Below, piece by piece: positions 19,096 through 50,487 of a stretch of DNA of 64,000 nucleotides. Under the pieces are notes generated by a model. The model worked only from the letters and a program-made list of their open reading frames with translations, made no database searches and was not told the DNA's origin. This DNA is from Thermonema rossianum DSM 10300 (lineage in GTDB: Bacteria; Bacteroidota; Bacteroidia; Cytophagales; Thermonemataceae): NCBI RefSeq assembly GCF_000426825.1, contig NZ_AUGC01000005.1:124001-188000 (forward strand), in the 5' to 3' direction. The translations under genes and the position numbers were made by a program. Position 1 is the stretch's first letter. Each line of letters opens with the position of its first letter.

Positions 19096-19184
19096 TTTTG
19101 AAAAAAATCCGGAAAAAATTTGGATGTTATCTTTTGAATTTGTATATTCATGTTAATGACATACATACATTATCATCCTTCAAT

Positions 19185-19303
19185 TAGACGTGTGCTACGC
19201 AAGTAGCGCGAGTCTATCAACCAAACGCTGATAGGAGCCTACCAAGCGGGCTCAGCCAAACGTCGCTTCTCTTACATAAGTAGGAGAAGCGACGACGTTT
19301 TTT
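19185..19303 (+). ncRNA. Candidate structured RNA downstream of lipA
   Basis: Consecutive hairpins are visible. Hairpin 1: GCTAC (19194-19198), tetraloop GCAA, GTAGC (19203-19207), with an outer TAGAC (19185-19189) / GTCTA (19212-19216). Hairpin 2: CTATCA (19214-19219) / TGATAG (19229-19234), loop ACCAAACGC. Hairpin 3: GAGCC (19235-19239) / GGCTC (19249-19253), loop TACCAAGCG, abutting hairpin 2. Then the linker AGCCAAACG leads into a terminator. The motif RCCAARCG occurs three times, twice in loops. The outer stem of hairpin 1 and hairpin 2 share 19214-19216 and exclude each other. A weak promoter-like TATCTTTTG is at 19128-19136. It could be a stand-alone sRNA or a structured lipA 3' UTR; I recognise no family. 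Confidence 0.5.
19261..19303 (+). terminator. Strong Rho-independent terminator
   Basis: 11-bp perfect stem CGTCGCTTCTC (19261-19271) / GAGAAGCGACG (19284-19294), followed by ACG and a run of six or more T's. It ends transcription from lipA and/or the candidate RNA, and overlaps the stop of the convergent lipoprotein gene. Confidence 0.88.
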
Positions 19304-19733
19304 AGGGTGCTTGTTTTTCAAAGTGAAGTTGCAGGCTTCCTTTTTCAAGAATGAGTTTTTCTTTTTTGAGCTTCTTTACATGAAAAGTGTCTTGCCTGTT
19401 GCCATAAGTAAAGATGAGTAGTTCTTCTTTTGGGAGAAGGGTGTAAAACCCTTGGGTTTTCAGCAAATTACGTTGAAATTGAAAATATTTCCCGCCGTCG
19501 AAAGAAAGGCGATAGCTGCCCAACTTTTCTTTTATGTCATGGGGTTGGGGCGTGCTTTTGTTGCTTTGCAGCTCTGTGGTTAATGAATCGACAGAAAGCT
19601 CGTCTTGCCATTGGCTTTGGTTAAAATCCAGCAGCCACTCACCCCGTAGCTGCTCATGAGGCGAAGCGCTGCAAGCACTAAGAAACACAAGGCATAACAA
19701 GAGCCATCGGGCGGTTTTGTATTTACTCTTCAT
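19302..19733 (-). CDS. Hypothetical lipoprotein
   Basis: 143 aa. The signal peptide has lipobox LSAC and the lipidated cysteine at 21. The mature part begins 'SPHEQLRGEWLLDF', a 'l.G.W.l' start seen in lipocalin-like small lipoproteins, with several predicted strands after it. It lies 2 bp downstream of the propeller sensor gene on the same strand and is almost certainly co-transcribed with it, so the two may work together at the envelope. Function unknown. Confidence 0.78.
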   Translation of the reverse strand: MKSKYKTARWLLLCLVFLSACSASPHEQLRGEWLLDFNQSQWQDELSVDSLTTELQSNKSTPQPHDIKEKLGSYRLSFDGGKYFQFQRNLLKTQGFYTLLPKEELLIFTYGNRQDTFHVKKLKKEKLILEKGSLQLHFEKQAP

Positions 19734-19735
19734 GC

Positions 19736-22441
19736 TTAATGCTTATTATCGTTGTTGGGTGGTGTTTCTTTTATTTCCCTTTTTTTGTCGCCGGCTTGAA
19801 AGCCGGTACCATCAGAAGTGACTTCCATGGGTTCTGTCCGGCGCAACTCTACACTGATGACGCCCTCCGGCTTTTCTATGATTTTTCGTACCCGCCGTTC
19901 AAGCGGCAACAAGTAGTAAGCCAGTATTACGTTCATCACCAGCTTAAATACCGGAACGCCACCGCTGAAATTATCGACATAAGGCTCCACCATGATGATT
20001 ATAAACTCAACCGTAGTGATAATGCTGACGATAGTAAGTATGCTGGTGGCGCGGGCATCTTTCTTGCGTCTGTTCAGATAAATGGAAAGCAGCAGCAAAG
20101 AAAGCAAAAACAGGATTTCTAAAATGTAAAACCACCAGGTCTCGTAGAAGGGAGGGCGCACATATAGCTTAATGCTTTGGGTTTGTGAGATGAGTCCTTC
20201 CGGAGTGCGTGCACGCACAAGCAAGCGATGCATACCGGTGGGCAAGTAAGCAAACTCAATATAGGGCGTGCTTCGCCATGCCGACCATTCCGACTCACCC
20301 TCACCTTCTATTTTATATTGAAATTGAGTGCGCTCACCGGCAAGGTAATAGGGGTAGGCTATGTGAAACACCAAGTGGCTGCTTTGGGGTGGCACTTCCA
20401 CGCCTTTGATTTCCCGCCCGTCTTCGCTAAGAAAGGGTAGGTAAGTGTCTTCATCTGTTTCAATGAAGCGTATGATGGGGTGCGAGGGTATGGCGGGGGA
20501 GGAAGTTGTTTCTTTCGGAATAAAAAATATGTTATTGGAGGCTACTATCCAGTAGTTGCCTTGGTAATCTACAGCAAGCACCTGCAGCTCGTCGAAATAA
20601 TTCACCAGCCGGTTGGTAAGAGGCTTTAAAGATTTATTTTGCAGGAGTAGCCACTGCCTGTTTTTGAGCAAGAAGAAAGCCTCTTGTTGGCTGTCGTAGA
20701 GGAAGGACAAAGGGTAATAACGGTTCAGCGCCTGATAGGGCAATAGCATGCCACCTAAAATTTCTTTGTGGAGTAGCGCCCCCTCTTTTGATAAGAAAAA
20801 GACATTTTCGCCTTGTTTTCCCACCCAGAGTGGCTGTATTGCTTGTGTGTGCAGCTCCATGCGGTAGTGACGGGCGAAGGTGCCATCGGTGCGTAAATGC
20901 ACGATGAGGCAGCCATTAAAAAGTCCCAGGTAAAGCTTGTTGCCGGCCAACATCAGGTTGGTGACATCATCAGGAATAGCAGCTATGCGATCTACCACTT
21001 TCCAATATCCACGGTACTCCCTGATGGCTATAAGTCCTTTTTCTGTGGCAGCATATAACATATTGCGCTTAGGTGCCCCATAAATGGCATACACATGCAG
21101 GTTGCGCATAATGGGGTAGCCGGTATGCCGGGTGACTTCATAAAGCCCCGTGCTGGAAGCTACCAATAATTTGCCTTTATAGTTGAGCAGCTGCTTACAC
21201 TTGGCGTCTATGTTTTTGATTTTCTTAAAATAATAGGGCACAGACTGCATGATGTAAGCTTTGAGAGCGTCTTCATAGGGGTTGCGCTCTTTTTCTACAA
21301 CAACGGTTTGTTGCTGCCGGGCAAACAGACGTTTGCGCTCATTGGCATATACTTTCCGGCTTACGACCTGCTCGCCCCGGATCTTGTCGAGCACAAACAG
21401 ACCGGCCGTAGTGCCTACGTACAGCTCCGGGCCCAAGCGTATAAGGCTACTGATAGAGCCTTCCAAGCCGGGATAGGTAGAAAAAACACGTAAGGGAGAC
21501 TGCAAGGCTACCCGGCTGCATCCTTGCGCGTGGCTAATCCACAAACCACCTTGCTTGTCTTCATAAATAGCCGTGGTTTCATCGTCTTTCAAGCCCGTTT
21601 CGTAATTGAGAATGTCAGTGACAATGCCACTGCTTTTATCCACTACAATGCAACCACCGGATAAAGTGGAAAACACAAAGCGCTGCCCATCACTTAGCGG
21701 GAGCATTTCATTTAGTAAAAACGTTTCGACATAGCGCGTGGCGGGGCTTCGATAGGGCATAAAATGAAGTCCGTCGAACAACCACAGGCGATTGTCGGGG
21801 CTGCTGCACAAGCCTCTTTGCTTGTCGAAAGGAATGTATTGGATTATGCCTGTTGTTTTTAAATTGTTGCCCGGGCGGCCGCTAAGGTGCATTTGCTTGC
21901 CATCCAAATGATAAATTCCCTTCCCGGGAGCAGAGGCATAAGCTTCGCCCCGGTGCAAAAAAAAGCCATTGAAGGAACTGTTTCGTGGAGCATGATAACG
22001 ATAAAGCAGGCGACGCCGGGTAATAGAATAAGCATAAGTGATGTTGGGGGTTTGTGCCCATAATGTGTCGCCTTGAAGCATGATTTTGCGCACGTTGCCT
22101 TCGGTAGTAAAGACAGAAGAAAAAACAACCTTGCCTTTGCTGTCAAATTGCAGATATCCTACCTGCCCTTTGCCACCTGCCCAAATACAACGCCTTTGAG
22201 AGTCGTAGGACAAGCTGTAAAGTGTGACGGGTATTTTGTGTACATGCTGCTGCTGACCATCATAAGTCACAATCCCCTCCGGCGTGGAAAAACACAGTAT
22301 ATCATTGTCAAAAGACTCAATGTCATAGGCATGGGCGCCAAAGTCATAGTTTTGAATAAAAAGGTTGCCACGCTGCGCATAAATCAAGCTGCTTATGCAA
22401 CATAAAAGAAATGAGGCAGCAAAAAAAACGACTTTCTTCAT
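19736..22441 (-). CDS. Two-component-type beta-propeller/Y_Y_Y sensor protein without a kinase domain
   Basis: 901 aa from MKKVVFFAAS at 22441; an in-frame start at 22483 lacks a signal. A signal peptide (cleavage near IYAQ) precedes a long periplasmic region with propeller-type repeats ('DILCFSTPEGIVTYDG', 'GGLWISHAQGCSRVALQSPLRVFSTYPGLEGSI'). A Y_Y_Y domain ends with 'FAYLPTGMHRLLVRARTPEG' at about 700-765. About four membrane helices follow (near 775-880), then a short cytosolic tail of about 45 residues. Hybrid two-component sensors normally continue into a histidine kinase; here there is no H-box or ATPase. It may be a regulator or envelope sensor that acts through a partner. Divergent from the TonB receptor gene. 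Confidence 0.88.
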   Translation of the reverse strand: MKKVVFFAASFLLCCISSLIYAQRGNLFIQNYDFGAHAYDIESFDNDILCFSTPEGIVTYDGQQQHVHKIPVTLYSLSYDSQRRCIWAGGKGQVGYLQFDSKGKVVFSSVFTTEGNVRKIMLQGDTLWAQTPNITYAYSITRRRLLYRYHAPRNSSFNGFFLHRGEAYASAPGKGIYHLDGKQMHLSGRPGNNLKTTGIIQYIPFDKQRGLCSSPDNRLWLFDGLHFMPYRSPATRYVETFLLNEMLPLSDGQRFVFSTLSGGCIVVDKSSGIVTDILNYETGLKDDETTAIYEDKQGGLWISHAQGCSRVALQSPLRVFSTYPGLEGSISSLIRLGPELYVGTTAGLFVLDKIRGEQVVSRKVYANERKRLFARQQQTVVVEKERNPYEDALKAYIMQSVPYYFKKIKNIDAKCKQLLNYKGKLLVASSTGLYEVTRHTGYPIMRNLHVYAIYGAPKRNMLYAATEKGLIAIREYRGYWKVVDRIAAIPDDVTNLMLAGNKLYLGLFNGCLIVHLRTDGTFARHYRMELHTQAIQPLWVGKQGENVFFLSKEGALLHKEILGGMLLPYQALNRYYPLSFLYDSQQEAFFLLKNRQWLLLQNKSLKPLTNRLVNYFDELQVLAVDYQGNYWIVASNNIFFIPKETTSSPAIPSHPIIRFIETDEDTYLPFLSEDGREIKGVEVPPQSSHLVFHIAYPYYLAGERTQFQYKIEGEGESEWSAWRSTPYIEFAYLPTGMHRLLVRARTPEGLISQTQSIKLYVRPPFYETWWFYILEILFLLSLLLLSIYLNRRKKDARATSILTIVSIITTVEFIIIMVEPYVDNFSGGVPVFKLVMNVILAYYLLPLERRVRKIIEKPEGVISVELRRTEPMEVTSDGTGFQAGDKKREIKETPPNNDNKH

Positions 22442-22501
22442 AAGAATAGTGCTAATGCTACAACAAGCAAATCTAAGACGCACAGATTGATAAAAAAAAT
22501 C

Positions 22502-22540
22502 ATCTAAATTTTTTGTTTAGATTAAATCTAAATAAATTTG
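22502..22540 (+). promoter_or_regulatory. TonB-receptor promoter with a palindromic operator filling the spacer
   Basis: A Bacteroidota promoter is visible: -33 TTTG at 22512-22515 and -7 TAAATTTG (TAnnTTTG) at 22533-22540. The 17-bp spacer is exactly the palindrome TTTAGAT-TAA-ATCTAAA (22516-22532). A third half-site, ATCTAAA, lies at 22502-22508. On the minus strand, CAAATCTA at 22468-22475 reads TAGATTTG, a perfect -7 element for the divergent propeller gene. TTTAG/CTAAA inverted repeats are typical of DtxR/MntR-type operators. A similar repeat overlaps the promoter of the DtxR-led operon at 57784-57805. Confidence 0.7.
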
Positions 22541-50341: not shown

Positions 50342-50487
50342 AGGAACTATTTGTTTATGTTTTTACCTCTCAAAAAACCTCAGCTAAATTAGAAAATTTT
50401 AAGTAAAAGGGAAAGAATGGCGGTTTATTTAATGTATAAAATCAAGATTCGAATGCTTACTTCACCACCTGCTTAACATAATATTTT

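Follow-up and report, generated by a model that had tools for sequence, protein, structure and literature searches.

The stretch just downstream of lipA raises the question of whether it carries an RNA gene of its own or only the tail of the lipA transcript. Terminators between convergent genes are ordinary, and the intrinsic terminator found here (19261-19303, + strand) lies at the end of a convergent gene (19302-19733). A preliminary description of the window, the whole 64-kb stretch of DNA analysed, had reported an unrecognised structured RNA at 19185-19303. The element does lie there, but its full extent is greater, since the conserved unit reaches upstream to about 19120. Judged from its sequence, it is probably a free-standing, genus-restricted regulatory RNA gene of about 149-150 nt with its own promoter and terminator. 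The predicted small RNA (~149 nt from promoter to terminator) spans 19155-19303 on the + strand.

Conservation in the sister species and a promoter-like site

The element is also present after lipA, at the same position, in one of 59 relatives. This relative is the other genome of the genus (G001, here the sister species), and the RNA gene is single copy in each genome of the genus. Between 19143 and 19303 the two species are 88% identical, compared with 83% for the lipA DNA and 49-77% for the remaining intergenic stretches that could be aligned in the syntenic part. The longest identical run of the whole window-sister comparison (19201-19241, + strand, 41 nt) covers the 3' side of hairpin P1, the AACCAAACGC segment and the start of hairpin P3, and it exceeds all other identical runs among everything alignable in the window. 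Constraint on the RNA is greater than on lipA and on every other intergenic stretch compared.

Other identical runs were seen elsewhere in the window. At 50361-50396, 36 bases are identical in the sister species; they immediately precede a minus-strand gene, whose product resembles citrate synthase at its N-terminus, and are probably its promoter or 5' UTR. The 35 identical bases at 22506-22540, which precede the gene of a TonB-dependent receptor (22575), are a possible regulatory site.

A promoter-like site of the Bacteroidota -33/-7 type, TTGGAT-N17-TATATTCA (19120-19150, + strand), lies about 60 nt after the lipA stop codon, and its counterpart in the sister species reads TTGCAT-N17-TATATTCA. 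Both tRNA units of the window are preceded by TTG-N20-TAnnTTTG (TTGGAC-N17-TATATTTG upstream of the + strand cluster and TTGTGC-N17-TATTTTTG upstream of the - strand tRNA). The site of the RNA, TTG-N20-TATATTCA, shares the TTG-N20-TAnnTT layout and spacing of these tRNA promoters in both species, and ends in TTCA instead of TTTG. The relaxed pattern that it fits occurs 10 times in the window against a chance expectation of 4.5, and a generic sigma-70 scan found no promoter for the RNA. The promoter box of Flavobacterium psychrophilum has been mapped at -12 to -5 (PMC9723704), and the same placement here predicts a transcript start near 19155. It is this conserved promoter-like site, together with the terminator, that separates the RNA from lipA, and the conserved promoter and conserved body favour an independent RNA over a plain terminator of convergent genes.

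The two genomes differ further downstream. In the window, the genes within the 3.2 kb that follow the RNA are on the opposite strand. Both minus-strand genes found after the RNA in the window are missing from the sister species (L002:1315-1500). What remains there of the 915-aa gene (window 19736-22483) is a fragment that resembles part of it, so most of this gene was deleted in the sister. Some 350 nt beyond the RNA in the sister lies the first intact gene seen on the same strand, which encodes a TonB-dependent receptor.

Predicted folds and the repeated motif

Compared with shuffled sequences, the reported region has a fold z of -6.9, mostly due to the terminator. When the terminator is left out, the window RNA still has a z of about -3.1 to -3.6, and the sister RNA one of -2.1. 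The terminator had been called strong, and it does contain a 15-pair stem (19261-19294) followed by the U-run CGTTTTTT, conserved in the sister. Hairpin P1 and the terminator are robust predicted folds in both species. P1 (19185-19216, + strand) pairs UAGAC with GUCUA and UGUGCUAC with GUAGCGCG. Its GNRA tetraloop is kept, as GCAA in the window and GAAA in the sister, and its stem differs by a single change, A-U to G-U. The predicted pairing probability of P1 in the window RNA is 0.82-0.99 at 37 °C or above. It is preceded by a 5' tail (19155-19184, + strand) that is predicted to be mostly unpaired and contains an invariant ATACATACATTATCA at 19161-19175.

The centre of the RNA is predicted to form competing helices. 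Two abutting hairpins had been described, and their stems CTATCA/TGATAG (19214-19219/19229-19234) and GAGCC/GGCTC (19235-19239/19249-19253) do adjoin each other. The first of them, H2 (19214-19234, + strand), presents the conserved first motif copy in its loop, ACCAAACGC. Its stem is present, but it is predicted to be a minor conformer against P1 and P0 rather than the main fold. P0 is a long-range alternative stem (19170-19234, + strand) in which UUAUCA (19170-19175) pairs with UGAUAG (19229-19234), identically in both species. This pairing is new relative to the preliminary description. It competes with H2 for UGAUAG and is itself weak, with a predicted pairing probability of 0.4 at 37 °C. 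H2 also competes with the outer part of P1, as had been claimed: the closing stem 19185-19189/19212-19216 overlaps it at 19214-19216, and the competing helices are identical in the sister. The mean pairing probability of H2 in the window RNA is 0.18 at 37 °C and 0.05 at 60 °C, and its predicted occupancy in the sister is 0.40 and 0.11; at 25 °C the values are 0.44 for the window and 0.78 for the sister. The central segment is predicted to be mostly unpaired at 50-65 °C. The second hairpin, P3 (19235-19253, + strand), holds the second motif copy in a loop that is not conserved, and its stem is predicted to pair weakly in the sister.

Stem changes between the species preserve pairing, with two stem pairs altered on one side only, in a comparison limited to two sequences. 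The only double change falls in a pair predicted outside the transcript, upstream of its start. On a further reading, the RNA would change conformation with temperature or a ligand: UGAUAG would switch between P0 with the 5' tail and H2 at the P1 flank and so hide or expose the invariant AACCAAACGC seed. We regard this reading as improbable.

The motif CCAARCG occurs at 19221, 19242 and 19256, so the three copies reported earlier are present. The significance given to them did not hold, with comparable triples (some one-degenerate 7-mer, non-overlapping, within ~43 nt) at 18 places in the 64-kb window. The first copy, within the AACCAAACGC segment, is invariant between the two species. The second reads CTAAGGC in the sister, where the P3 loop is CTAAGGCA. 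The third, CCAAACG at the foot of the terminator stem (19256-19262, + strand), reads CCC-ACG there (linker GCCC-ACG). Since the sister has neither copy 2 nor copy 3, the repeat is unlikely to be the functional feature. Titration or multi-site binding by repeated loops, as proposed earlier, is not supported, given that two of the three copies are not conserved, and a sponge sRNA built on the motif was rejected on the same ground. The suggestion that AAACG segments take part in attenuation is likewise not supported: AAACG before the terminator makes a longer terminator foot in an alternative register (AAACGUCG/CGACGUUU), it is not conserved, and no + strand gene follows for 3.2 kb.

Distribution and candidate functions

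The covariance search proposed in the preliminary description gave no homologue beyond the genus. Across 390 genomes of the order, covariance models matched only the window genome (G000) and G001, and among 395 genomes drawn from the phylum they matched only G000, the sister presumably not having been drawn. Weak matches in other genomes (L045-L048, 20-25 bits), as well as one at a second place in G000 (L049), pair poorly, probably lie inside coding sequence and are about as numerous as chance predicts for 390 genomes; they were dismissed as chance. In other members of the family, nothing similar lies just after lipA. A 21-letter pattern had no exact match in 84,980 species genomes, and a looser one gave 94 stretches there, of which the best among the 80 loci listed reached 20 bits, a chance level. 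The sole match on a viral contig lies in sequence that looks coding, and no similar DNA was found in plasmids and phages. These species-genome, viral, plasmid and phage collections may omit near relatives of the window. Within the collections searched, the RNA thus appears confined to one genus.

The absence of a recognised family, stated earlier, agrees with an Rfam scan: at the gathering threshold only four tRNAs were found in the whole window and no family was assigned to the RNA, and relaxed thresholds gave chance matches only in its region. The 6S-Flavo model (RF01685) matches nothing between 19050 and 19350 up to E = 10, and a 6S identity was rejected on this search. Nor did the model match anywhere in G000 or G001 up to E = 1, which leaves the 6S gene of the genus unaccounted for. 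The bacterial small SRP RNA (RF00169) was likewise rejected, its model matching nothing in the region up to E = 10. In G000 and G001 as a whole no SRP RNA match was seen either (E up to 1, about half of the candidates scored), while most relatives matched; the SRP RNA of the two genomes may be divergent, or the search itself may have been limiting. The RNA is therefore best listed as a candidate for a previously unlisted, lineage-specific sRNA of a known class, the intergenic sRNAs, and not as a motif-repeat sponge.

What such an RNA would do can be judged from its parts. With about even confidence, we favour a free-standing, genus-restricted sRNA with its own sigma-A promoter and terminator, most likely acting in trans by antisense pairing. 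It would be transcribed from this promoter, end at the intrinsic terminator and pair with mRNAs independently of Hfq. Its seeds would be AUACAUACAUUAUCA, within the mostly unpaired 5' tail, and the AACCAAACGC segment that separates P1 from P3, with P1 and the terminator as stabilising structure. No Hfq was found in the genome or its relatives by a search that recovered Hfq in 5 of 14 control genomes. Near-matches of two seed candidates in both genomes include no antisense match shared at a gene start. P1 itself (19188-19209) is complementary at 20 of 22 bases to the end of an nqrC-like coding sequence in both species (E ~0.07; L158:1501-1522 and L157, at G000:C7:140984-141005 and G001:C1:663531-663552). 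No other near-match to P1 was seen in both genomes, and the complementarity is probably due to chance.

The main rival to antisense pairing is an sRNA that acts by binding a protein or the polymerase, in a 6S-like or sponge-like manner, through the P0-P1 bulge or the AACCAAACGC strand. The strongest constraint falls in one structured block (19201-19241), P0, an internal loop and P1 are predicted to make an irregular hairpin, and the genus has no 6S-Flavo match to account for its 6S gene. However, only one motif copy is conserved, which speaks against multi-site titration, P0 is weak, and the RNA neither matches 6S nor has its ends paired as in 6S; on balance such a role is unlikely. Still less probable is that the locus is only the lipA 3' untranslated region with its terminator, possibly yielding a processed 3'-UTR RNA without a promoter. 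The RNA does directly follow lipA in both species, where a terminator is expected, but a conserved promoter-like site intervenes, conservation extends far beyond the terminator, and lipA of other family members has nothing similar just downstream.

A tiny mRNA or leader peptide is improbable. The frame 19156-19206 encodes MTYIHYHPSIRRVLRK (sister MKYIHYHHLIRRVLRK), stays open and gap-free across the two species, and three of its six changed codons are synonymous. It has only 16 codons, its AUG lies 1 nt from the predicted start and its stop falls inside P1. The P1 stem and GNRA loop would explain the synonymous changes equally, the most conserved part lies mainly beyond the stop codon, and this genome has no same-strand gene downstream to attenuate. 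That last point bears equally on a cis-acting attenuator or riboswitch, which we consider very improbable because no same-strand gene follows for 3.2 kb in this genome. The competing helices identical in both species and the receptor gene on the RNA strand of the sister would suit it, but the terminator takes no part in the helix competition.

Comparison with known small RNAs

If transcribed, the RNA would be a new lineage-specific sRNA in a Bacteroidota branch without an Hfq match, and its extremely conserved candidate seed would offer an entry point to RNA regulation in such bacteria. We know of no sRNA targets in that branch. Taken alone, it would be one among many sRNAs revealed by Bacteroidota transcriptome studies, and of an ordinary kind.

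Like 6S RNA and 6S-Flavo (RF01685), this RNA is small and has an irregular hairpin with an asymmetric open region. Unlike 6S, its ends are not paired together, it has a separate terminator hairpin, and its enclosing stem is weak, with 6 pairs only. The central hairpin of this RNA is probably much stronger than that of GibS and other Bacteroides sRNAs. In Bacteroides, which has no obvious Hfq or ProQ, a large number of intergenic sRNAs that possess a start site and a terminator of their own, GibS among them, have been mapped (PMC7366714). With the high-confidence members of this group (GibS and others) the RNA shares a predicted sigma-A type promoter, an intrinsic terminator and an intergenic location (PMC7366714). 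It differs in being confined to another order. The independent transcripts Rfp1-89 of F. psychrophilum are short (median 176), lack coding potential and are in many cases structured, and their promoters carry a TAnnTTTG-type box (PMC9723704). No homologue of the predicted RNA was found in the 395 phylum genomes. It resembles Rfp1-89 in being short and structured and in having a similar promoter box.
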